In this document: positions 15,435 through 25,527 of the stretch, piece after piece
Numbering within the stretch: the stretch's first letter is position 1
Layout of the letters: every line of letters begins with the position of its first letter
Virus record (IMG/VR): IMGVR_UViG_3300034759_000319
Location: 1 to 27,433 of that record
Strand: one strand, 5' to 3'
Length of the DNA: 27,433 nt
Origin: a virus
Translations under genes and position numbers: made by a program
The notes under the pieces: generated by a model
What the model was told of the DNA's origin: nothing
The model's input: only the letters and a program-made list of their open reading frames with translations
The model's database searches: none

Positions 15435-17278
15435 TGTCCACCTCTAAGCAATCCCAGAACGCTGGGCAGGCTTATATTCTGGGGATTTGGTGGCTGTATT
15501 GGCATCTTATTGGAAGGAATGGGATTGGTGCTTGCTTCTGGCTGCTCCCTAAGTGAAGGAATGAGTTCATCAAGGTTGTCGATATTCATCTTCTCTGCTA
15601 TGCGCTTTACAATCTCCTTCTGGTCAACCAGAGGCACCATCATCGGCTGGCCATCAGGCCCGAGTACTGGCCTGCCCATCGGGTCGGTCTGAGGAACCAG
15701 AGCCGACTGGGCCAGCTTCCACATGTTCATCAGGTTTTCTATCTCTATTTGCCGCTCTGAGAAAACAGTAACGCCACGAGGCCTGAAGTCGGGATTACCG
15801 CTCAAGCGAATATCGCTACTGGTAATCTCCGCTTTGGCCTTCTTCTGTATGTAAGCAGCGGCATTCTTTTTGCCCAAAACCTTGTAAGCAGAGGTCTTGC
15901 TCAAAAACTGCAAATTGTGTTTGTAGAAAATTTCCAGAACCCGCTGGAAGAATGGCTCCAGGCAATGCTTTACCGTGTGCTTGATAGGCTCTGCAGCATT
16001 GCTCTGCATCATCAAGGTCGCCCCAAGGGTTTCTGGCAAGCCCTTCTTGTTCACTACTGGAGAGATAACAGGCACGGCATGGGAAATCTTCTGGATTTTC
16101 TCTTCCAGAATATTGATTAGGGTAATCAGCGGTGTGAGGGCTATGGCCTGAGCTCGGGTGTCGATGAACTGCAGAGCATTGGAAACATTGTCCACGTTGG
16201 GATTAGCATAGAAAACCTTGCCTGGGCAAGCTGTAATTACCGCCGATGAGAAGCCAGAGACCTTGGCTGGGTTTACCACGAACATGGGATTGGAAATCAG
16301 GTTAATGCAGTCGGTCAGCTTGTTGTGGGCATTGGTAAGTTCCTCAGCCATGGCCTGGATGTCTTCGGCAGTACCACACCCAAAGGTTTCGTTAGGCATA
16401 CGGTCTTTGGCAGCATCGACAAAGATGAGCCCGCTGTCGTAAGGATAGGGAACGGCACGTATACAGACCTTGCGGTTGGCTATGGTCACTATGGCATTAA
16501 CATACTCATCATCATAAGGATTTACGGTGGCCTCATCGAAAGCATTGCCCTCGAGCAAGTCTCTGGGCACTTCTCCGTGGTACTCGAGGAGCTCCACCCT
16601 GTCCTCAATCAGCTTGCTGTAGTCAGGGTCTTCATCTTCCCTGGGCTGGGAAGTGTCCTTGAGAAGAGAAATGGAGTGGTAAACCCCTTGCTTCTCCATC
16701 TGCTTCAGGTAGGATACGAAAACATCTCTCTTGCGCACTATCACCCAGGAAGAGGAGATGTCCAGAGCTTGTGGGTCGGGGAAGAACGAGAAAATATCAA
16801 TGACCTCGATATCGGGGCCTTCGAAAATAACGGTTTTGCCCGATTTCTCCACCCTCCAGGGCACTTTGGCCACCGAATAGCCAAAGATTTCAAACTGCTT
16901 CAGAAAGGCTTCCATAACCCCAAAGAAGCCCCCACGCCTTCTCCCAACATTCTCGAGCTGGTAGATGAGCAAGTCCTTGAGGTAAGGAATGATTTCCTCA
17001 TCCTCTTCGCTCCCTGGCTCGATGTCAAAGCTCTTTATGCCGTTGGCAAAGAGAATGTTGGCATAGAGAGGCACTTTGGTTCTCACAATGTCTTTAAGGG
17101 TGGGGATTATGAAGTTGGCTTGCCAGGGCTCCTTGTTGGGCCTCCTGGTGCCACGGTAGTCGTCATAGTACTCTCTCCACTTTTCACGCAGCGGAGCAAG
17201 TTCATTCTTGCTGTATTCGAAACGGCTCAGTACAAAGCGTACCAGAGCTTCGCCTTTGGTAGTGGTCTTTTTACCCAT
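15431..17278 (-). CDS. Portal protein
   Basis: The protein has 615 residues, with AAGGGGC before the ATG. It starts 12 bases after the terL stop and is followed by scaffold and capsid genes, the standard head-module order. The N-terminal region, with LREKWREYYDDYRGTRRPNK and PWQANFIIPTLKDIVRTKVP (about residues 29-69), and the helix-rich stem region match podoviral portal proteins. These form the dodecameric DNA entry ring and connect to the adaptor. A tyrosine/proline-rich patch near 340 and the helical wing around 380-430 are also expected. The C-terminal 60 residues, with many Pro and Asn, probably form the crown or barrel end. I would expect 12 copies at one capsid vertex. Confidence 0.88.
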   Translation of the reverse strand: MGKKTTTKGEALVRFVLSRFEYSKNELAPLREKWREYYDDYRGTRRPNKEPWQANFIIPTLKDIVRTKVPLYANILFANGIKSFDIEPGSEEDEEIIPYLKDLLIYQLENVGRRRGGFFGVMEAFLKQFEIFGYSVAKVPWRVEKSGKTVIFEGPDIEVIDIFSFFPDPQALDISSSWVIVRKRDVFVSYLKQMEKQGVYHSISLLKDTSQPREDEDPDYSKLIEDRVELLEYHGEVPRDLLEGNAFDEATVNPYDDEYVNAIVTIANRKVCIRAVPYPYDSGLIFVDAAKDRMPNETFGCGTAEDIQAMAEELTNAHNKLTDCINLISNPMFVVNPAKVSGFSSAVITACPGKVFYANPNVDNVSNALQFIDTRAQAIALTPLITLINILEEKIQKISHAVPVISPVVNKKGLPETLGATLMMQSNAAEPIKHTVKHCLEPFFQRVLEIFYKHNLQFLSKTSAYKVLGKKNAAAYIQKKAKAEITSSDIRLSGNPDFRPRGVTVFSERQIEIENLMNMWKLAQSALVPQTDPMGRPVLGPDGQPMMVPLVDQKEIVKRIAEKMNIDNLDELIPSLREQPEASTNPIPSNKMPIQPPNPQNISLPSVLGLLRGGQ

Positions 17279-17290
17279 CGTATCGCCCCT

Positions 17291-18703
17291 TTAGAAGCCA
17301 GCGTACTTGCTGGCCATACTACGCACATAATCTTGAGCCACTCGCTCATAGCGCAAGGTCATAACTTCAGCCTGGGCAAGCCTCTGGGCATAAAGGCCCA
17401 TGATGTAAGCATCAGCCTTGTCTGGAGATTTGCCCAGCCTGCGCTTCACATCTTCTTTCCCCTCTATCTGCACCTTCCCGTTCTTGAATGCATACTGCAC
17501 ACAAGAAAGCTCCTGCAGAAGCTCTTCATCTGGCCAGGAGAGATAGACCTCTTTCTCCTGGAAGAGCTTGCGGGCTTCCCACCACATCTCAGCACGCAGA
17601 TTCTGGTACATGGTGGAGTCGGAAGCTCTTGCAGCGCTGTTTATGTCCAGAACGTTGTTGCCCATCTCACGCAGCCTGTCAGCCACTCCAGCTCCAACCC
17701 CGATAACATCAACGGCTATGGTAAGTGGGTTGTGCTTTCTGGCCAGGATATGCACCGCTCCAGCCACATACATCGTGTCTTTGTTGGTGAGGATAAGCTC
17801 TTCGATAATGTCGGTGCCTTCCATAACATAGGCTACAGTTCGGTCATCACCAAAGCGAGCAACATCAACCGCAATAACTTTTTTACCCTCGAATTCAACC
17901 CTGGTCGCCTCTCTTGCGCTCCTGAGCCAGGCAATGGGCAGAACACAATCTATAGCGGTGGTCGGGAACTCTCCCAGGCACTTTATCTGGAAGAGCGGCG
18001 ACTCTTCTCCCCATTGAGCCCGCTTTTCTTCAACCCACTCTGGAGTAACCAAGTAGGGCCTGATGTTGCCCCTGCCCTGGAAATTGGGGGTATCGTAGCA
18101 GGAAATATGGATTTTGTTGTACTCAGGAGCATGGTGAGAGCGGTAGAACTCACCAGAAATATGGTTGGGGTTGCCGATGAGAAGCATTTTTGCGCCTTTG
18201 GAAGTCATGAAACCTTCAACCGCTTGAAAAATCTCCTCGGGCACGTCGGAAGCCTCATCGACAACCACCAGAATATCCTCAGCATGGTATCCCTGAAACC
18301 TTCCAGGCTTATCGGTGGAGAGTCCAATTGCGTACCAGTTGGCATCTATCTCCATTTTGGTGCGTAAGACCTTGCTCCCCAAGGGTATTTTGGCCTTAGC
18401 GTGTTCGCTGCGAATCTCACGCCAGAGTTGGTTTTCCACCTGAGTCCAGGTAGGAGCGGTGGTGATAACCACGCTCTTGGGCATGGTGTGCAGATACCAG
18501 AGGACAGCCCAGGCAGCGGTTTTGGTCTTGCCAGCACCATGGCAGCTCCTGACAGAAGTTCTCTTGTTCTTGGCCACGCTCTCCAGGATTTCCATCTGCT
18601 TATCCCATGGATTGGCACCAAGAACATCCACAACCCAGGCCACAGGGTCGTGTTGATATTTAATCAGGAGCTTCTTGGCAATTTCCTTATCCGCTCTGGG
18701 CAT
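17291..18703 (-). CDS. terL: Terminase large subunit (ATPase and nuclease)
   Basis: The protein has 470 residues, and its ATG begins 3 bases after the terS stop. It packages DNA into the prohead. The ATPase domain has Walker A SCHGAGKT (53-60), Walker B ILVVVDEAS (144-152, catalytic Glu 150) and the coupling motif IGNPN (176-180). The RNase H-like nuclease domain follows with VDVARFGDD (Asp 280), a second acidic site VDVIGVGAG (Asp 332) and a third in SPDKADAY (Asp 431). Both domains are complete and no key residue is missing. Small terminase upstream and portal downstream confirm the assignment. A very long open frame on the opposite strand over this gene and the portal gene is a codon-bias shadow. 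Confidence 0.96.
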   Translation of the reverse strand: MPRADKEIAKKLLIKYQHDPVAWVVDVLGANPWDKQMEILESVAKNKRTSVRSCHGAGKTKTAAWAVLWYLHTMPKSVVITTAPTWTQVENQLWREIRSEHAKAKIPLGSKVLRTKMEIDANWYAIGLSTDKPGRFQGYHAEDILVVVDEASDVPEEIFQAVEGFMTSKGAKMLLIGNPNHISGEFYRSHHAPEYNKIHISCYDTPNFQGRGNIRPYLVTPEWVEEKRAQWGEESPLFQIKCLGEFPTTAIDCVLPIAWLRSAREATRVEFEGKKVIAVDVARFGDDRTVAYVMEGTDIIEELILTNKDTMYVAGAVHILARKHNPLTIAVDVIGVGAGVADRLREMGNNVLDINSAARASDSTMYQNLRAEMWWEARKLFQEKEVYLSWPDEELLQELSCVQYAFKNGKVQIEGKEDVKRRLGKSPDKADAYIMGLYAQRLAQAEVMTLRYERVAQDYVRSMASKYAGF

Positions 18704-18706
18704 AAA

Positions 18707-19180
18707 TCAATCCTCCGCCATGCGCATAAACTCGGCCCAAGAGTACATAGCATCCGCTTTTTTGCCCTCTGGGTCTTCTCCGAGAGCAGTCTTACCAATG
18801 CTCTGGAACAGCTTCAGTATGTTGCCCAGCTTTTCCAGGAGCCTGATTTCCTTTTCCTTAATCATATCCTGGGGTAGAGTGCGCAATTGCCTGATTTTCT
18901 CCTCCACCAGAGAAGCAGCCATTTCAGCAGCCCTGAAACAGGTGGCATCAAAGCTCGCTGCATCAGAAGCCAACTCTTCCGTGCGCTTCTCCTTGCGCAG
19001 TATTTCGACCTTGGCACGGTACAACTTGCGCTCTTGCAGCCAGTTCTCTTTTGCAGAGCGCTTGGTAATGCAACCATACGACACATACTTTTTGTATGTA
19101 TCGGCAAGTTCCTGGAGGGTCATATTGCCCTCAACATAAACCCGCTTTATCTCATCCCATGGTATCTTCTTGCGGCCCAT
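18707..19180 (-). CDS. terS: Terminase small subunit
   Basis: The protein has 157 residues. The N-terminal 45 residues look like a helix-turn-helix (WDEIKRVYVEGNMTLQELAD, then TYKKYVSYGCITKRSAKENW), the DNA-recognition domain of many small terminases. The rest is helical and would form the oligomerisation core. A conserved-looking LLEKLGNILKLFQ segment lies near residues 113-125. The gene is first in the late operon. Upstream lie a GGGGTGAT ribosome site and a terminator-like hairpin 64 bases before the start codon. It recognises the packaging site and hands DNA to the large subunit. Confidence 0.87.
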   Translation of the reverse strand: MGRKKIPWDEIKRVYVEGNMTLQELADTYKKYVSYGCITKRSAKENWLQERKLYRAKVEILRKEKRTEELASDAASFDATCFRAAEMAASLVEEKIRQLRTLPQDMIKEKEIRLLEKLGNILKLFQSIGKTALGEDPEGKKADAMYSWAEFMRMAED

Positions 19181-19243
19181 TTTCCCAAATCACCCCTTTT
19201 GGGCTACAAAAATAAAAAACGGCTTTCGGGCTTTTGAAATCGG

Positions 19244-19271
19244 AAAAAAGGGGGGTATGGGGGTACCCCCC
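19244..19271 (-). terminator. Attenuator-like terminator in the terS leader
   Basis: Read on the minus strand, GGGGGGTA and TACCCCCC form an 8-bp stem with a CCCCCA loop (19258-19263). The stem is followed at once by TTTTTT (19244-19249), which is the form of a strong intrinsic terminator. An outer arm GGAAAAAA / TTTTTTCC (19242-19283) extends it with a 4-base bulge. It lies upstream of terS, not after a gene, so it would stop leftward transcription before the virion genes unless it is bypassed. Confidence 0.7.
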
Positions 19272-19288
19272 TCAATTTTTTCCTAAAC

Positions 19289-19331
19289 AAAACAATATTT
19301 TTCGGGAAAATAAAACGATATTTTTCGGGAA
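19289..19331. repeat. Tandem 20-bp direct repeats
   Basis: AAAACAATATTTTTCGGGAA (19289-19308) and AAAACGATATTTTTCGGGAA (19312-19331) differ at one base and have a 23-bp period, close to two helical turns. They lie in the leader between the C-rich hairpin and the terminator. They may be protein-binding sites on DNA or RNA, for example for an antitermination factor. The function is inferred from position only. Confidence 0.65.
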
Positions 19332-19352
19332 GCAGGGGTACCGTCATGTGGG

Positions 19353-19386
19353 CCCCAGGCAAGGGGGGGAGGGGGGAGGCCTGGGG
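19353..19386 (-). promoter_or_regulatory. Hairpin with C-rich loop; possible antiterminator arm
   Basis: CCCCAGGC (19353-19360) pairs with GCCTGGGG (19379-19386) around an 18-base loop that is almost all G on the plus strand and CTCCCCCCTCCCCCCCTT on the minus strand. In leftward RNA the loop contains CCCCCCUC, an exact complement of GAGGGGGG in the 5' arm of the terminator at 19244-19271. The G-runs on the plus strand could also form a G-quadruplex. Confidence 0.55.
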
Positions 19387-19460
19387 GGTACCCTCCGCAT
19401 TTCGTTTCCGCTTCAACCATTTCCATTTCCGTATCTCCATGAAATCTGACCATCCTTGAT

Positions 19461-19485
19461 GTTCAGAAAACATCGTTTTCTGAAC
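19461..19485. promoter_or_regulatory. Perfect 11-bp inverted repeat (operator-like)
   Basis: GTTCAGAAAAC (19461-19471) and GTTTTCTGAAC (19475-19485) are exact inverted repeats with a 3-base spacer. No T-run follows on either strand, so an operator for a dimeric repressor or activator is more likely than a terminator. It lies 8 bases from a DnaA box. Confidence 0.65.
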
Positions 19486-19492
19486 ACTCTGC

Positions 19493-19501
19493 TGTGGATA
19501 A
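19493..19501. promoter_or_regulatory. DnaA box (single, consensus)
   Basis: TGTGGATAA is the exact reverse complement of the consensus DnaA box TTATCCACA. It is the only exact match I saw in non-coding DNA of the window. With the AT-rich and pyrimidine tracts to its right it could belong to a replication origin, but one box is weak evidence. Confidence 0.45.
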
Positions 19502-19905
19502 CTGCATGAAAACGTTTTCTTTTGCCCTACAACGCACGTTTCTTTCTCGGGTAAGGGATAATACTTCTTCGAAGTTGAACGGCGTTTCTTGGGCACAAAA
19601 TCGCTGTTTGGTGCAAAGTTTTCGTGGCGTTGTGACGTTGTGCTGGACGTTTCGGCATTGCGTTGTAACTGAAGAACACAAGGTTTTTCGAGAACAGCAT
19701 TTTTGGAAGAGTTGGGAGAGTGTTTTTTTGCTTCTCTCGGATCTCTCGCACAATACAATTCTTTCAGCATTGTCGCTTGCAATTCGCTTCTCATGCGGAT
19801 TTCAGGGTGTTGGCTTCTTGAGAAGAATACGCTTCTTCTGGGAATCTGTGCTGGGAACGAAGAAAATTTCTTTTCTCGTACGAAACACTTTTCTTTTCGT
19901 TTTTA

Positions 19906-19988
19906 CTCTTCTCTTTCTCTTTCTTCTTCTTTCTTTTTCTTTTTCTCTTGCCTTCTCTCTTGTATTGCTCCCTCTATATATATATATA
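19906..19988. repeat. Polypyrimidine tract followed by a TA run
   Basis: Positions 19906-19949 are 44 consecutive pyrimidines on the plus strand, inside a wider pyrimidine-rich block (about 19886-19974). The block is followed by TATATATATATATA at 19975-19988. Such a pair melts easily and can form triplex (H-) DNA. It may be an unwinding element or just low-complexity DNA between operons. Confidence 0.6.
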
Positions 19989-20065
19989 GCGAGTGCGCAA
20001 AAGGCGCTATTCATGCGCCTTCCAGGCCATTACGAAAAAATTTCAAAAATTTTTGAGAAAGGGGG

Positions 20066-20094
20066 TTGACAGAGCAATGACACTGTTCTATACT
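20066..20094 (+). promoter_or_regulatory. Sigma-70 type promoter of the rightward early operon
   Basis: TTGACA (20066-20071) is exact to consensus, followed by a 17-base spacer and TATACT (20089-20094). Transcription would start near 20101, about 27 bases before the first start codon. An imperfect inverted repeat, ACAGAG and CACTGT around CAATGA (20069-20086), overlaps the spacer and could be a repressor operator. Confidence 0.85.
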
Positions 20095-20127
20095 ATAATC
20101 GCAAAACAATGAAAGGGGGAATGACAA

Positions 20128-20478
20128 ATGAAAATAAGAGTGGACGGCTTTCTAACCAAGAAAAATGTAAACCTTCGGGAAGTAATCAAAGAAGCAGGAT
20201 TTACCTGGAACAGAAGAAGCGCATCGTGGGAAAAAGCAACCACGCCACGCCAAGCCGTAGAAATTATTAAAAACCTTCGCTCATATGACATCCCGCCACG
20301 CGCCTTCGAGGTAGTAAGCGACGACGGGAAACCGGGTAGGGAATGCCAAGATGGAACGCCAGAAAAGGAAACCGGGCGTTGGCTGTACTTTTTCAAGAAG
20401 GCCCTGTACGACACAAGGGCCAAAGAAGAAGTGGAAAGAATTGAAGAATACCTATTGAAGAATACCTTTGAGGGATAA
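20128..20478 (+). CDS. First gene of the early operon, unknown function
   Basis: The protein has 116 residues. The ATG has GAAAGGGGG upstream, the ribosome-site type shared by the next genes. The N-terminal half reads as a small alpha/beta unit (MKIRVDGFLTKKNVNLREVI, then KEAGFTWNRRSASWEK, then a helix PRQAVEIIKNLRSY). The aromatic AGFxWN and SWEK pattern resembles short phage domains that I cannot name with certainty. The C-terminal helix is charged (RAKEEVERIEEYLLKNTF). No catalytic motif is evident. Its position right after a strong early promoter suggests host takeover or regulation. The last codons and stop (GAGGGATAA) coincide with the 3' half of the intergenic repeat element. Confidence 0.75.
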   Translation: MKIRVDGFLTKKNVNLREVIKEAGFTWNRRSASWEKATTPRQAVEIIKNLRSYDIPPRAFEVVSDDGKPGRECQDGTPEKETGRWLYFFKKALYDTRAKEEVERIEEYLLKNTFEG

Positions 20479-20480
20479 AC
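20463..20480 (+). repeat. Degenerate copy of the intergenic CRISPR-like element
   Basis: TACCTTTGAGGGATAAAC spans the end of the first early gene and resembles the 3' half of the element (CCTATGAGGGATAGAAAAAC). It includes the stop codon. It is followed by the palindrome GTGGGTTTAAGCCCAC (20484-20499) and the ribosome site of the next gene. It could be chance. Confidence 0.35.
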
Positions 20481-20516
20481 ACCGTGGGTTTAAGCCCACA
20501 AAAAGGGGGATTCAAA

Positions 20517-20765
20517 ATGTACATTTATTACAAAAGAATTAATCATAGGCGTGACTATTGTGAGCATTGCGGAAGACAAGGAACGAAAGTTCAGGTCGTT
20601 AGATGGGTTGTGCCCGGCGTGGCGTCATATGTAGCCGGGCACAATATCAAACCGATAGAATATTGTTCTATCAAATGCGCAAAAGCCGAAGAAGATCCAG
20701 CTAAATGGGTAAGGGTTAGGAAAAACACCATCGAGGAAATTAACAAAATGGGCTATCCAGCATAA
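20517..20765 (+). CDS. Small zinc-finger-like protein
   Basis: The protein has 82 residues. I chose the ATG at 20517, which has AAAAAGGGGG at good distance. A start 33 bases upstream would include a hairpin and lacks a site. CEHCG near residue 15 and YCSIKC near residues 49-54 provide a CxxC and a CxxxC pair, a pattern for one structural zinc. The strand between them (KVQVVRWVVPGVASYV) and a C-terminal helix complete a treble-clef-like layout. Similar small zinc proteins are common among phage early products and often bind nucleic acid or host proteins. The specific function is unknown. Confidence 0.72.
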   Translation: MYIYYKRINHRRDYCEHCGRQGTKVQVVRWVVPGVASYVAGHNIKPIEYCSIKCAKAEEDPAKWVRVRKNTIEEINKMGYPA

Positions 20766-20772
20766 ACCCCAC

Positions 20773-20797
20773 GGGGATAGGGTTATTCCCTATCCCC
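20773..20797 (+). other. GC-rich hairpin after the zinc-finger gene
   Basis: GGGGATAGGG, loop TTATT and CCCTATCCCC form a perfect 10-bp stem 7 bases after the stop codon. There is no T-run. It directly precedes the best repeat copy (20799). Confidence 0.75.
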
Positions 20798-20798
20798 T

Positions 20799-20825
20799 GT
20801 AGCTTCCCTATAAGGGATTGAAAAC
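20799..20825 (+). repeat. CRISPR-repeat-like element, copy A (most complete)
   Basis: The element has the core TAGCTTCCCTATAAGGGAT followed by the tail TGAAAAC, so the last part reads ATTGAAAAC, with TCCCT/AGGGA forming a small stem. It follows the pattern I know from thermophile and clostridial CRISPR repeats (ending CCTATRAGGRATTGAAAC), with one extra A and without the leading GTTT. It is bounded by two hairpins. Confidence 0.65.
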
Positions 20826-20844
20826 GGAATGGGAAACCATTCCG
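20825..20844 (+). other. Hairpin with GAAA tetraloop after copy A
   Basis: CGGAATGG, loop GAAA and CCATTCCG form a perfect 8-bp stem closed by a GNRA tetraloop. It starts at the last base of the repeat. The ribosome site of the next gene follows. Confidence 0.75.
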
Positions 20845-20868
20845 AAAAAGAAAAAGGGGGAATGGCAA

Positions 20869-21255
20869 ATGATAAGGAAAACCTTTTCTAATGATGTAGG
20901 AATTAAAAAAGGGTGGATACTGGACTTGGGAGAGTATGGAGATTTCGAACACAACGGGGAAGTACTCCTAGACGAAGATTTTCTGACAGCAACCATCCCA
21001 GGAGCGTACATCCTCTTCGGCTGGGTCTTCTGCCCAGCCGAAATAACGATCGACCTGGATGAGAAGACGTTCAATCAGTGCCTTCAAGATCCAGATACTA
21101 TTCTCGAAATTGGTTGGGGGGATAACTGGGTCGTAGAGCCCAGCGACTCCTGCGAAGTGGTTGAGGAAGGGGATGAGGACAAAATCGAGGAAATCCTGGA
21201 AACGGGTTTCGGGGAATATCTCAGGAAATATCTCAGGAAAAAGGGGCGGGCGTAA
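20869..21255 (+). CDS. Acidic early protein, unknown function
   Basis: The protein has 128 residues. The ATG at 20869 has AAAAAGGGGG upstream; an upstream TTG would lie inside the repeat element. The protein is strongly acidic, with clusters GEVLLDEDF (about 31-39) and CEVVEEGDEDKIEEILE (about 94-110), and ends in a short basic tail (RKYLRKKGRA). Trp and Gly in the middle (ILFGWVFCPAE, EIGWGDNWV) suggest a compact beta fold. Acidic early phage proteins sometimes mimic DNA and block restriction or CRISPR systems. That is only a possibility here, raised by charge and by the flanking CRISPR-like elements. The stop codon lies in the loop of a hairpin. Confidence 0.72.
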   Translation: MIRKTFSNDVGIKKGWILDLGEYGDFEHNGEVLLDEDFLTATIPGAYILFGWVFCPAEITIDLDEKTFNQCLQDPDTILEIGWGDNWVVEPSDSCEVVEEGDEDKIEEILETGFGEYLRKYLRKKGRA

Positions 21256-21265
21256 TGCCCGCCCC
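21243..21265 (+). other. GC-rich hairpin enclosing a stop codon
   Basis: GGGGCGGGC, loop GTAAT and GCCCGCCCC form a perfect 9-bp stem. The TAA stop of the acidic protein lies in the loop. No T-run follows; the next repeat copy starts 3 bases later. Confidence 0.75.
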
Positions 21266-21267
21266 TC

Positions 21268-21295
21268 GTAGCTTCCCTATGAGGGATAGAAAAAC
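21268..21295 (+). repeat. CRISPR-repeat-like element, copy B1
   Basis: This copy has the core TAGCTTCCCTATGAGGGAT with the tail AGAAAAAC. It is identical to copy A over the core except for the A/G position, and the tail has A for T. CGGAAT follows, as in copies A and C. Confidence 0.65.
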
Positions 21296-21299
21296 GGAA

Positions 21300-21323
21300 T
21301 AGTTTCCCTATAAGGGATAGAAG
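21300..21323 (+). repeat. CRISPR-repeat-like element, copy B2
   Basis: This copy reads TAGTTTCCCTATAAGGGAT, then AGAAG. It lies only about 32 bases (start to start) from copy B1. The space between them is too short to be a CRISPR spacer, so this is not an ordinary array. Confidence 0.6.
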
Positions 21324-21345
21324 CCCACGGGCTCAAGCCCATGGG
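21324..21345 (+). other. Hairpin after copy B2
   Basis: CCCA and TGGG close an inner stem GGGCT / AGCCC with loop CA; one mismatch lies between the two stem parts. It is followed by the AAAGGGGG ribosome site of the next gene. Confidence 0.6.
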
Positions 21346-21370
21346 TAAATTTAGAAAGGGGGTTTAAAAA

Positions 21371-21877
21371 ATGAAAGAGGAAATCAGAAACGAGGAAACC
21401 AGAACTGAAGTCGAATTGGAGTTGACCAAGCGTGGGCTTCCCGCCCTGTGGGAATGGGGCGGGGGCTTCACCAATACGGGGGAGGCCCAGGTCGTCGCTG
21501 GGCCTCACGGGGAGGCTCTCAAGCCTCTCTATGTGCGGCGCAAAGGTCACTTGGCCAACCAGGAACACGCTCTTTTCGTGGTCTACCCAGGGTGTTTTGT
21601 AATTCGTGGAAGTCATCACAGAAAAGACTTTGAAGTTGATGTGTTTAGGGTTGAAGCAATAAACGTCGAGGAAAAGAAGGCAATCCTCAGGAGGATTGCT
21701 AATTTCTCAGAGGGTGAGTGGGATATAGAGCCTCCTGAATTCCTCGTTGAGGCCATTCAGGAGGCCGCTGATAAGGCGACCTGCTACCATTGCAGGGAGC
21801 CACATTTTGCAAATCTTGAAGAGCCACGACTGCTCTGCTGGAACTCAAGCCTCAGGGCAAAGCTACTTCAGCCTTGA
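21371..21877 (+). CDS. Early protein of unknown function with C-terminal Cys cluster
   Basis: The protein has 168 residues, with an ATG preceded by AGAAAGGGGG. The first half is probably a beta-rich domain: TKRGLPALWEWGGGFTNTGE (19-38), then YVRRKGHLANQEHALFVVYP and a strand CFVIRGSHHRKDFEVDVFRV. Histidines around residues 59-83 and the cysteines CYHC (about 142-145) and a later Cys near 159 might bind metal, but the spacing does not match a standard zinc finger that I know. The middle helix is charged (VEEKKAILRRIANF). It is followed by a strong terminator, so it ends the first transcriptional unit of the early operon. The function is unknown. Confidence 0.72.
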   Translation: MKEEIRNEETRTEVELELTKRGLPALWEWGGGFTNTGEAQVVAGPHGEALKPLYVRRKGHLANQEHALFVVYPGCFVIRGSHHRKDFEVDVFRVEAINVEEKKAILRRIANFSEGEWDIEPPEFLVEAIQEAADKATCYHCREPHFANLEEPRLLCWNSSLRAKLLQP

Positions 21878-21916
21878 GGCAATTGGATGATCACCCTCGG
21901 GCACGGCAGCAAGCCA

Positions 21917-21952
21917 GGCCCACGGGATTTACAAATCCCGTGGGCCTTTTTT
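21917..21952 (+). terminator. Intrinsic terminator
   Basis: A 13-bp stem (GGCCCACGGGATT with AATCCCGTGGGCC), a loop of four bases and TTTTTT at 21947-21952. It lies 40 bases after the preceding stop. A strong stop or a leaky one between early genes; the following genes need read-through or their own promoter. Confidence 0.9.
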
Positions 21953-21965
21953 ATTTGTGGCGTTC

Positions 21966-21984
21966 ATGTGAGGGATAGAAAAAC
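21966..21984 (+). repeat. CRISPR-repeat-like element, partial copy C
   Basis: ATGTGAGGGATAGAAAAAC keeps the 3' half of the element. The 5' half (TTCCCT) is lost. It shares GAGGGATAGAAAAACGGAAT with copy B1. Confidence 0.6.
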
Positions 21985-22003
21985 GGAATGGAATTCCATT
22001 CCG
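21984..22003 (+). other. 20-bp perfect palindrome after copy C
   Basis: CGGAATGGAATTCCATTCCG is self-complementary throughout. It matches the stem of the hairpin after copy A (CGGAATGG / CCATTCCG) with AATT instead of GAAA at the centre, so the repeat-plus-hairpin pair was probably duplicated as one unit. Confidence 0.75.
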
Positions 22004-22028
22004 AAAAAAACGGAAGGGGGTTGTAAAG

Positions 22029-22445
22029 ATGACAAACAACAGCTTCAAACTTGATGAAGCAATAGGAAAATTCGAGGAGGCGAGCAAACGCATGGCACAG
22101 GCAGCAAGCGAGCTGCTGGCTCTGGTGAACAACTGTAAACGCAAAGTATACGAGCGTTTCGAAAAAGCAGGAATAAACGGCAATGACGTTGCGCAATTCA
22201 TCAATCCAGCGTTGGAAAGGGCAAATATTCGCTTCAGGGTAAAGGCGAGCGATTATTGGGAAACTGAGGGAAAATTGCGCATAGAATACAACGGAAAACG
22301 CATTCCTGGTTCGGTGGAATGGTTGAGCAGAGAGGGGAAAATAGGCCTTGCAGAGCTGATACAAGTAGCTAAAGAACTGCCACGCTTCATTGAGGCTGTT
22401 AGTGAGGCATTGGCTGAGATGGAAAATAAGATAAAACGAAAATAA
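22029..22445 (+). CDS. Helical early protein of unknown function
   Basis: The protein has 138 residues, with GGAAGGGGG upstream of the ATG. An N-terminal coiled-coil helix (KLDEAIGKFEEASKRMAQAA, continuing to about residue 45) is followed by a middle alpha/beta part (NIRFRVKASDYWETEGKLRI) with a short lysine-arginine turn, and a C-terminal helix (ELPRFIEAVSEALAEMENKI). No enzyme motif is visible. It lies between two terminators and so forms a unit of one gene, probably expressed from the space upstream or by read-through. The function is unknown. Confidence 0.72.
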   Translation: MTNNSFKLDEAIGKFEEASKRMAQAASELLALVNNCKRKVYERFEKAGINGNDVAQFINPALERANIRFRVKASDYWETEGKLRIEYNGKRIPGSVEWLSREGKIGLAELIQVAKELPRFIEAVSEALAEMENKIKRK

Positions 22446-22470
22446 GATAAAACAATTGTTTTAAACCTGA

Positions 22471-22499
22471 AAAGGCGGGCTTTCCGCCCGCCTTTTTTT
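22471..22499 (+). terminator. Intrinsic terminator
   Basis: AAAGGCGGGC, loop TTTCC and GCCCGCCTTT form a 10-bp stem that runs into a seven-T tract (22493-22499). It lies 26 bases after the preceding stop codon. Confidence 0.92.
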
Positions 22500-22530
22500 G
22501 GAAAATTAAAAAGAGGTTAATGAAGATGGT

Positions 22531-22550
22531 GTAGCTTCCCTATGAGGGAT
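22531..22550 (+). repeat. CRISPR-repeat-like element, copy D (core only)
   Basis: GTAGCTTCCCTATGAGGGAT is identical to the core of copy B1. The usual tail is displaced by a hairpin (22552-22566, CTGGGC, loop TCG, GCCCAG), after which TAGAAAAAAC resumes, as if a hairpin had been inserted into the element. Confidence 0.62.
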
Positions 22551-22592
22551 TCTGGGCTCGGCCCAGTAGAAAAAACAAAAGGAGGTATTAGT

Positions 22593-23237
22593 ATGTGCGA
22601 ATTTCTCTCTTTCAGTATTACAAAAGACGGACGGATCCTTGCCCTACTTGGGCAGGATAGGGTTAAGGCTATCGAAAGCGACCTTAACCCAGACAGCCAC
22701 TCAGTAATTGCTGAGTGGTTCGGTGTCAATGAAGATGACTGCTGGAAATATGAAATTCCAATTTCCAGTGTCGATGAAATTAATGCTGATGGTATTGATG
22801 CCCTACTGGAAAAGATGAAATATGATGGCGGTCAGCCAGAGGGAGATATTCCGCTGTCGTATATTCGGAATATCAAGTCGTTTCTACAGCAAAATATAAA
22901 GCTAATTAATGCAGTAGCTATGCAGCACTTTGGTGTGCCTCTTGACTTTTTAGAAAGTGCTATTCTCAACGGCGAAGAAAGAACCTTCTTTCTTTCTTTC
23001 CCCGTTGAAGTTCAGCTTAAGAATGATGTTTGTGTGCTTGCAAGAAGTATCAAGGGAAAATATAACATTCCTGTTATCGTAACACCAAAGCGTGTTGATG
23101 ATTACTATCAAGGCAGGCTTTGGGTAATTAGTATCTATAAGCACTATCTGCCCAATGCTATTGTGGAGGGCAATCCTGATCTCAGGGCTTTTGAGTACCG
23201 GGTTCAGGTTTTGCCGGTGGACGATATCGTGGAATAG
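22593..23237 (+). CDS. Phage protein of the MCEFLS type, unknown function
   Basis: The protein has 214 residues. I chose the ATG at 22593, preceded by AAAGGAGG at good distance; an upstream ATG would lie in the repeat. The start MCEFLSFSITKDGRILALLG, then DRVKAIESDLNPDSHSVIAEW and a WKYEIPIS strand, recalls small phage proteins that begin MC(K/E)FxS and contain a DSH motif (from memory). Removal of Met would expose a Cys at the N-terminus, which in other families serves as a nucleophile; this is untested here. The second half is helical, then strand-rich. It follows a terminator, so a nearby promoter is probable. I cannot assign a reaction. Confidence 0.75.
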   Translation: MCEFLSFSITKDGRILALLGQDRVKAIESDLNPDSHSVIAEWFGVNEDDCWKYEIPISSVDEINADGIDALLEKMKYDGGQPEGDIPLSYIRNIKSFLQQNIKLINAVAMQHFGVPLDFLESAILNGEERTFFLSFPVEVQLKNDVCVLARSIKGKYNIPVIVTPKRVDDYYQGRLWVISIYKHYLPNAIVEGNPDLRAFEYRVQVLPVDDIVE

Positions 23238-23250
23238 GGGGGACGAGGCA

Positions 23251-23592
23251 ATGATTAGAGACGCGATTGGTTTCGGCCTCTCGCAACTCTGGAAAACGCT
23301 TTCTTACTACCCAGAGCCAATTCGGGAAGACGTCCTGCGTGAATACGAGGACCTAAGAGAATATTTTGCCCTCGCTCTTTTAGAGCGGGGGCTTTCCCTT
23401 AATAACGTTTCAGAGGAGAACATAAAGGATATTTTCCGCTCTCTGGGACGTGCAATTTACCAGACCGCTAAGTTTTGCGGCTGGAAGTATACGAGGACTT
23501 ATGGTTGGGTAAGGGTTGAGCGGTGGGATGTGGACAATGAAAAACGAAGACGAAAAAATGCTCACAGAGATTATCAGGAAGGCCATCGCTGA
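23251..23592 (+). CDS. Helical early protein of unknown function
   Basis: The protein has 113 residues, with an ATG 13 bases after the preceding stop and GGGGGGACGAGG upstream. A longer frame beginning inside the previous gene is unlikely to be used. The protein is helical at first (IGFGLSQLWKTLSYYPEPIR, then EDVLREYEDLREYFALALLE) and becomes basic at the end (VDNEKRRRKNAHRDYQEGHR), which would suit nucleic-acid contact. Its 3' end overlaps the next gene by about 55 bases. The function is unknown. Confidence 0.7.
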   Translation: MIRDAIGFGLSQLWKTLSYYPEPIREDVLREYEDLREYFALALLERGLSLNNVSEENIKDIFRSLGRAIYQTAKFCGWKYTRTYGWVRVERWDVDNEKRRRKNAHRDYQEGHR

Positions 23593-23707
23593 AGGTAAGC
23601 TATTCGAGCTTGTCTTCAGCGAAAACGGAAAGAGGCTCTGGTCTTCCTGGCCAGAAGAGCGTTTCAAGGAAATGGTGTTAAAAGAATTAAAGCGGAAGGA
23701 GACTTAG
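23537..23707 (+). CDS. Small charged helical protein
   Basis: The protein has 56 residues from the ATG at 23537, with GGTGGG 9 bases upstream; an ATG 9 bases earlier is an alternative start. It has an amphipathic helix (NEDEKMLTEIIRKAIAEGKL), then a short strand with an aromatic turn (LFELVFSENGKRLWSSW), then a basic helix. The 5' end overlaps the previous gene in another frame. It is short, but the regular helix and dense packing of the operon support coding. The function is unknown. Confidence 0.58.
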   Translation: MKNEDEKMLTEIIRKAIAEGKLFELVFSENGKRLWSSWPEERFKEMVLKELKRKET

Positions 23708-23710
23708 GTA

Positions 23711-23794
23711 ATGTGTAAGTTCTTCAGTTTGCTTTTAGGGAGGTGTTTTAAATGGCTCTCAATCCTAATGCCAGATACGTTCAGGTCACTTTGA
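23711..23794 (+). pseudogene. Possible remnant start of a second MCKFFS-type gene
   Basis: The frame reads MCKFFSLLLGRCFKWLSILM and ends after 27 residues. The first six residues match the MCEFLS start of the larger protein at 22593, and it begins 4 bases after the previous stop (TAGGTAATG). Further on it contains the ribosome site and start of the next gene in another frame. It may be a leftover 5' end of a paralogue or a chance reading. Confidence 0.3.
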
Positions 23795-24183
23795 ACAAGG
23801 AGCTGAGAAGCTTTCTCGAAAAACACGACCTTGGCTCTGCAAGCACCACAATTAAGTTCATGTTGAAGGTGTTTCAGAAAGCGATGGAGAAAGAACTACA
23901 GAGGCTTAATCTCAGTGTAAACGAACTGAAATGCGTACTGGATGCACTAAACGGTTTCATAGGAGACCCAGACACAATTGAGTACTTATGGGCCGAGATA
24001 CAGGAAGCAATAGAGCTGGATGGACTCGACAAAAAATGGGGCATTGATGGGGAAAAGCTGGTGAAGAAGTTGCGCAATGCTTCACCAACAGCACTATTCG
24101 CACTATATGACATGGCCCAGCGTTTTTACAAAAAGCCTGGCACATGGACAGATGAGGAAATTGAAGAGTTGAAGGAGTTTTAA
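23752..24183 (+). CDS. Putative ribbon-helix-helix regulator, last gene of the early operon
   Basis: The protein has 143 residues, with GGGAGGTG upstream of the ATG. The N-terminal 45 residues (YVQVTLNKELRSFLEKHD, then LGSASTTIKFMLKVFQKAM) fit a ribbon-helix-helix unit: one strand with alternating polar residues, then two helices. Such proteins bind DNA as dimers. The rest is helical and acidic and may serve as a partner or oligomer domain (LDALNGFIGDPDTIEYLWAE). It could repress the early promoter or act on the inverted repeats in the control region. It ends just before the convergent terminator. The family assignment is tentative. Confidence 0.7.
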   Translation: MALNPNARYVQVTLNKELRSFLEKHDLGSASTTIKFMLKVFQKAMEKELQRLNLSVNELKCVLDALNGFIGDPDTIEYLWAEIQEAIELDGLDKKWGIDGEKLVKKLRNASPTALFALYDMAQRFYKKPGTWTDEEIEELKEF

Positions 24184-24224: not shown

Positions 24225-24461
24225 TCAATCACAGGCAGGCCTATAGGCCTGCCTTATTTTTTTCATCTCCAGCCTCACCAATGCTTCTGAAATCCTCAAC
24301 CTTCTTCCAATCTCCCTCAACGAATAGCCCTCAGCGTAAAGCTCAAGTATGCGTTTTTGCCTTTCGGTGAGAACCTTGCCCAACACCTTGATAAACAATC
24401 CCGAAAAATCGGCACTTGCACAGGTGCTTATACTGTATTCTTTGATTTCTTCAATGCTCAT
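24225..24461 (-). CDS. Helix-turn-helix protein (sigma region 4 / LuxR-like)
   Basis: The protein has 78 residues from the ATG at 24461, which overlaps the previous stop by 11 bases. A longer frame from TTG at 24551 is an alternative. The C-terminal half has a clear helix-turn-helix: LTERQKRILELYAEGYSLRE, then IGRRLRISEALVRLEMKKIR, the layout of sigma-factor region 4, LuxR-type and ArpU-type phage regulators. With only one DNA-binding domain it could act as an activator of late genes, as small phage proteins of this kind do. The late operon lacks an obvious sigma-70 promoter, which would fit such a role, but this is inference. It is the last gene of the operon. Confidence 0.72.
   Translation of the reverse strand: MSIEEIKEYSISTCASADFSGLFIKVLGKVLTERQKRILELYAEGYSLREIGRRLRISEALVRLEMKKIRQAYRPACD
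24233..24263 (+). terminator. Terminator between convergent operons
   Basis: AGGCAGGCC, TATA, GGCCTGCCT is a perfect 22-bp palindrome (24233-24254), followed on the plus strand by TATTTTTTT. It ends the early operon. The palindrome also encodes the last residues of the convergent minus-strand gene, so the terminator and the coding sequence share bases. Confidence 0.88.
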
Positions 24462-24774
24462 CCAGTTCTGTGGATAGCTCTCTATTTCCTGCAGCCCTTC
24501 CTTCTGCAATAAGCAGTCGTAATGCTTCAAGATATTCTGCTTTTTGCTCAAAAAACCAGCCCTCCTCTACAACTTGTAGGTAGCGCACAATTTGCCTTGC
24601 GTTCTCGCAACCGTGAGCAAGGGCCCTATCGAGGTCTATCTTTGCAAGCAGGGCCTCATTTTCCCCAGGAGGGATGAGAGCATAGAGAGAAGCGGTGGTG
24701 AAAGGCTCTCTCGCCTGCAAGTAACAGCGCAATACTTCAGCCACTACTTCTACCCAGCTTTCTCTTGAAATCAA
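24451..24774 (-). CDS. Helical protein of unknown function
   Basis: The protein has 107 residues. The TTG start overlaps the previous stop (TTGA) and has AAGGGGA upstream. It is mainly helical and acidic, with WVEVVAEVLRCYLQAREPFT at the start and a later helix pair (RQIVRYLQVVEEGWFFEQKA, then EYLEALRLLIAEGRAAGNRE). No motif is recognised. Tight overlap on both sides indicates translation coupling in the replication operon. The function is unknown. Confidence 0.65.
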   Translation of the reverse strand: MISRESWVEVVAEVLRCYLQAREPFTTASLYALIPPGENEALLAKIDLDRALAHGCENARQIVRYLQVVEEGWFFEQKAEYLEALRLLIAEGRAAGNRELSTELDEH

Positions 24775-25305: not shown

Positions 25306-25527
25306 TTAATCCGCCTCCTTCTTCAACTTAGCTATCTCGGCGAGTAGGTCATCCACGGTTGTTTCCAAGCTATCAATTTCTCCAATCACATTTTTCAACT
25401 CCTCTTCTGCTTGGTCTATATCTCCAAACGCCAGGTAACGGTGCACACCATAGGCGCACCGTTCCAAATACGTTGCAACATCAACCAACACCGTCGCCAT
25501 ATCAATCATCAGTTTTTTCACCATCAT
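25306..25527 (-). CDS. Coiled-coil protein of unknown function
   Basis: The protein has 73 residues, with GGAAGGAGG before tandem ATG codons (25527 and 25524). The second half is a regular heptad helix (QAEEELKNVIGEIDSLETTV, then DDLLAEIAKLKKEAD). The first half is a more hydrophobic helix (MATVLVDVATYLERCAYGVH). It is likely an oligomeric helper. The gene overlaps the end of the zinc-ribbon gene before it by 26 bases. The function is unknown. Confidence 0.68.
   Translation of the reverse strand: MMVKKLMIDMATVLVDVATYLERCAYGVHRYLAFGDIDQAEEELKNVIGEIDSLETTVDDLLAEIAKLKKEAD

Follow-up and report, generated by a model that had tools for sequence, protein, structure and literature searches.

Gene layout and the gap between the divergent operons

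The stretch analysed here (the window) is one whole IMG/VR virus record of 27,433 bp, which is probably incomplete. A block of leftward genes runs from 19180 down to position 2 and encodes TerS, TerL, an SU10-like portal, the major capsid protein, an SU10-like adaptor, a 1729-aa LPD38 protein and an M23 peptidase. Small rightward genes occupy 20128-24183, and beyond them, up to the record end, lies another leftward block, beginning at 24225, with genes for a sigma-region-4-like HTH protein, a RusA-like protein and a DnaN-like clamp. The following features frame the start of the virion operon.

17291..18703, minus strand: terL, large terminase subunit (phrog_2, E 2.1e-46)
18707..19180, minus strand: terS, small terminase subunit, first gene of the virion operon (phrog_1206, E 7.7e-8)
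20066..20094, plus strand: sigma-70-like promoter of the divergent rightward operon, TTGACA-17-TATACT (11/12 matches)
24225..24551, minus strand: 108-aa HTH protein like sigma region 4, candidate late regulator (GerE 4.7e-7, Sigma70_r4_2 1.5e-6)

The divergent gene blocks are separated by 947 bp (19181-20127) that carry no coding signal. The longest open reading frames in this gap have codon scores of -0.25 to -0.01, as compared with 0.12 to 0.48 for the genes of the record, and a 196-aa leader reading frame was ruled out as a gene by its codon score. On the minus strand of the gap, a promoter scan found no sigma-70-like promoter with at least 9 of 12 matches. A long polypyrimidine tract followed by TATATATATATATA lies at 19860-19990 on the plus strand of the gap.

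The predicted terminator and the C-rich hairpin upstream

Two stem-loops in the leftward RNA, about 80 nt apart, lie in the leader of the virion operon.

19244..19249, minus strand: U tract of the terminator, 6 U (from the sequence)
19249..19272, minus strand: intrinsic terminator hairpin, 9-10 bp stem and 6-nt loop (fold -18.1 kcal/mol, z -3.1, 0/200 shuffles as stable)
19266..19273, minus strand: GAGGGGGG, 5' arm of the terminator (from the sequence)
19353..19386, minus strand: C-loop hairpin, 8-bp stem and 18-nt C-rich loop (19361-19378) holding CCCCCCUC at 19369-19376 (fold -15.2 kcal/mol)
19332..19398, minus strand: outer stem GCGGAGGGUACC / GGUACCCCUGC enclosing the C-loop hairpin (MFE fold, all partial transcripts; z -1.45 vs shuffles)

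Read leftward, AGGGGGGUA-CCCCCA-UACCCCCCU (19272-19249) forms a stem that runs directly into six U, and the terminator ends 63 nt from the terS ATG (19180). The combination of a stable G/C-rich hairpin and an immediate U tract on the sense strand marks it as a predicted intrinsic terminator, strong and well formed, in the non-coding leader immediately before terS, just where the first-pass annotation had placed one. Leftward RNA begun upstream would thus halt before the virion genes. The G/C-rich stem, short loop and U tract that follows at once are those of bacterial intrinsic (Rho-independent) terminators, from which nothing essential differs, although the arms here are homopolymer runs and the site is terminator-like on the plus strand as well. 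A scan of the whole record found just two strong terminators on the minus strand, the second being antisense within the rightward operon, and plus-strand terminators at 21916, 22472 and 24233, each downstream of rightward genes, a placement that would be anticipated with a bacterial host. The arrangement is not general in the family: a survey of 44 relatives with a TerL gave no case of a terminator lying 350 nt or less from the putative terS (random stretches, 20/420), and none of the 44 has a leader like that of the window.

The first-pass annotation went further, proposing base pairing between the C-rich loop and the 5' arm of the terminator, mutual exclusion of the two structures and release of the operon by this pairing alone. 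If true, RNA pairing would turn on late genes in a new way that requires no additional factor. The loop and its complement were indeed found: the stem CCCCAGGC/GCCUGGGG (19386-19379 / 19360-19353) closes the loop CUCCCCCCUCCCCCCCUU (19378-19361), within which CCCCCCUC (19376-19369) is exactly complementary over 8 nt to GAGGGGGG (19273-19266). Moreover, the duplex energies favour neither partner, at -18.4 kcal/mol for loop and arm and -18.3 for the two terminator arms. The complementarity is nevertheless not beyond chance. Dinucleotide shuffling of the 186 nt upstream produces an 8-nt complement to the arm in 13.5% of cases; the figure is 5% over the whole 853-nt leader, and 45% when C and G runs of at least 5 are kept intact and their order alone is changed. 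The loop matches the arm because both are homopolymer runs. Five of the record's eight G or C runs of at least 6 lie within the 139 bp of 19250-19388, a clustering that makes many pairings possible; the arm can also pair with other upstream C runs and with GGUACC palindromes, and GGUACCCC at 19342-19335 pairs with it at -15.9 kcal/mol. The outer stem of the C-loop hairpin itself consists of two GGUACC-bearing segments.

Which of the two structures would the RNA adopt? RNA folding had been suggested as a check, and nested folds favour the terminator by far over the loop-arm pairing. In the full leader, the mean pair probability of the terminator is 0.975 at 37 C and 0.893 at 75 C, against 3e-11 and 5e-4 for the pairing of loop and arm, and forcing that pairing on the full-length RNA takes the energy from -58.4 to -41.7 kcal/mol, 16.7 worse. 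Two mutually exclusive structures of comparable stability, the hallmark of an attenuator, thus do not emerge from nested folding. Folding of partial transcripts predicts early burial of the G run, first in a local GGGGG-UAC-CCCCC hairpin and later in the terminator. The most favourable moment for the proposed switch comes when the 5' arm alone has been transcribed, at which stage the forced pairing costs 3.5 kcal/mol in nested folding. This small cost makes a transient pseudoknot possible, pseudoknots being outside the model of folding programs that consider nested structures.

A short-lived trap of loop and arm may therefore form, though nothing suggests that it is regulated. One could imagine a kinetic switch acting alone, in which the C-rich loop would hold the 5' arm by way of a transient pseudoknot formed as transcription proceeds, and the speed of the polymerase, as set for example by host growth temperature or nucleotide supply, would determine the level of virion mRNA; we consider this the least probable of the readings discussed here. 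The leader also offers nothing to sense: it has no Rfam family match, and its reading frames, without coding signal, provide no leader peptide. Searches for a homologous leader likewise came back empty (see below). With the complement at chance level and the terminator dominant from 37 to 75 C, release of the operon by RNA pairing alone is very improbable, and a role for the C-rich hairpin as an anti-terminator is not supported. Of the antitermination form that had been proposed, the terminator ahead of the virion genes stands, and the control by RNA pairing, which would have neither sensor nor leader peptide, is not supported. Our literature search found no paper on RNA-paired attenuation of terminase operons.

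Perhaps, instead, the terminator is controlled through the C-loop hairpin or the outer stem, to which a protein or trans-acting RNA would bind. The whole 163-nt leader is more stable than 200 of 200 shuffles (z -4.0), and the exposed 18-nt loop would make a possible binding site. However, the terminator itself accounts for much of the excess stability, the C-loop hairpin and outer stem alone reach z -1.45, and neither a binding factor nor an Rfam family was identified for the leader. We regard such a trans-acting control as unlikely.

Known phage systems provide useful comparisons. In the immunity system of phage P4, RNA pairing controls termination by way of a separate CI RNA. The likeness is that RNA-RNA pairing in a phage leader would decide termination; the difference is that the analysis of the present leader revealed neither such a separate RNA nor a conserved pairing. 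In the late control of lambda, the terminator tR' is passed by Q, and a terminator ahead of late genes and a non-coding leader are common to both cases (PMC6606751). Unlike in lambda, no Q protein, late promoter or pause site was recognised in the window; Q profiles match the 24225-24551 protein weakly, over the HTH, with E values of 0.008-0.011 that fall under the Pfam curated cut-off. The put RNA of HK022 resembles the present case in that stem-loops precede a terminator in a phage leader RNA that is still being made, but put acts on the polymerase rather than by pairing to the terminator (PMC9378689). The leader of the window gave no Rfam match.

Proposed control of the virion operon or a possible DNA site next to terS

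The feature is probably an ordinary terminator. We give roughly even chances to the full form of this reading, in which the leader of the leftward virion operon carries a plain intrinsic terminator that blocks leftward RNA until a phage protein or a downstream late promoter takes over. Any leftward transcript, whether begun at an upstream promoter or arising from stray transcription, would end before terS, and the virion genes would stay silent early; their later expression would depend on a phage protein that allows polymerase through or on a phage-dependent promoter located within or past the leader. We infer that leftward RNA crosses the terminator, and likewise who might relieve it: the obvious candidate would be the sigma-region-4-like protein encoded at 24225-24551. 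Three relatives found via the capsid protein (L088, L090 and L092) have a sigma-region-4-like gene immediately before a terS-like gene, an arrangement that points to protein control of late genes; the window protein is 25-32% identical to theirs. Terminators ahead of phage late operons are well known as points of control, and the present case would add one example from a poorly studied phylum. Against a plain terminator stand the failure to recognise a leftward promoter upstream, the lack of any counterpart among the 44 TerL relatives, and the presence nearby of GGTACC motifs, tandem repeats, a dyad and a DnaA box, which fit a DNA site too.

19285..19330, no strand assigned: two 23-bp tandem repeats AAAYAAAACRATATTTTTCGGGA, 91% identical
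19460..19486, no strand assigned: perfect dyad TGTTCAGAAAAC-atc-GTTTTCTGAACA with 12-bp arms, operator-like (repeat search)
19493..19501, minus strand: DnaA-box consensus TTATCCACA (exact match)

These elements raise the question of whether the region serves as DNA rather than as RNA. In such a case, the G/C-rich dyads, the 23-bp repeats and three GGTACC sites would belong to a site next to terS for terminase recognition, a genome end or a replication origin, and the terminator-like hairpin would be a by-product or a minor part. The non-coding gap of 947 bp is conspicuous within a compact genome, three of the record's five GGTACC sites fall within 131 bp, the G and C runs cluster as described above, and tandem repeats, a perfect dyad and a DnaA box are all present. 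GC skew changes sign at the gap, but the skew tracks gene direction, and DnaA-like boxes are spread over the whole record. A putative packaging site (cos, pac or terminal repeat) would fit the position next to terS, and phiM5, a TerL relative, has a 357-bp terminal repeat directly before terL. On the other side, a U tract right at the 3' base of the stem exceeds what a DNA site needs. Altogether, a DNA site is an alternative to which we assign a clearly smaller chance than to the plain terminator. A palindrome, GAAAACGTTTTC, lies at 19508-19519 near the dyad, and one or both are probably operators of some regulator.

Relatives that might have revealed covariation in the leader were sought by several routes. 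No relative of TerS turned up in viral or species-genome contigs, and searches with TerL alone or the portal alone gave none in viral contigs. An alignment search with TerL gave 80 distant loci (best about 44%), none with a similar TerS, and a search with the major capsid protein gave 15 loci at 55-71% identity, those reaching upstream of the portal apparently having another terminase and leader. The DNA patterns of the operator and terminator had no match in viral contigs, and no homologous leader was found by any of these searches (TerS, TerL, portal, capsid protein and DNA patterns). In the three relatives named above and in L099, capsid and portal are 55-59% identical to those of the window and the terminase upstream of the portal is apparently different, so that the packaging module has apparently been exchanged within the lineage.

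Host lineage and solitary CRISPR repeats

The analysis also links the phage to an Atribacterota host. Positions 25398-25433 match, at 36 of 36 bases, the first spacer of a type I-B CRISPR array in a closed or near-closed genome of that phylum (G025; main contig 2.27 Mb), and two other spacers of the array match in part, at 15915-15939 and 21353-21374; reversed spacers gave no matches. The array has 31 repeat copies in the stretch read and lies beside cas8b, cas7, cas5, cas3 and cas1, subtype I-B. These spacer matches identify the host lineage as Atribacterota, and a bacterial host in turn supports the application of intrinsic-terminator rules. An archaeal host, raised by the best TerL match (vir525, Methanosarcinales), was ruled out by the bacterial beta clamp (DnaN-like) and the spacer match. 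No prophage relative was detected by major capsid protein or TerL in 50 Atribacterota genomes.

An element repeated within the rightward operon proved to be the core of the CRISPR repeat.

20799-20824, 21268-21293, 21299-21324, 21957-21982 and 22531-22556, plus strand: five solitary copies of the repeat core GTTTGTAGCTTCCCTATAAGGGATTGAAAC, some degenerate, in non-coding leaders of rightward genes

Solitary repeat units have been described as RNA anti-CRISPRs (PMC10651486), and those of the phage resemble them. By this resemblance, they are candidate RNA anti-CRISPRs (Racr-like) or, alternatively, candidate Cas6-processed leader elements, and these host-type repeats may merit more attention than the terminator. 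The copy at 20799-20824 agrees at 26 of 26 bases with the repeat of the type I-B array of an Atribacterota genome, and the GCTTCCCTATRAGGGATWGAAA pattern occurs in one contig only of the species collection, in the array of an Atribacteria MAG.
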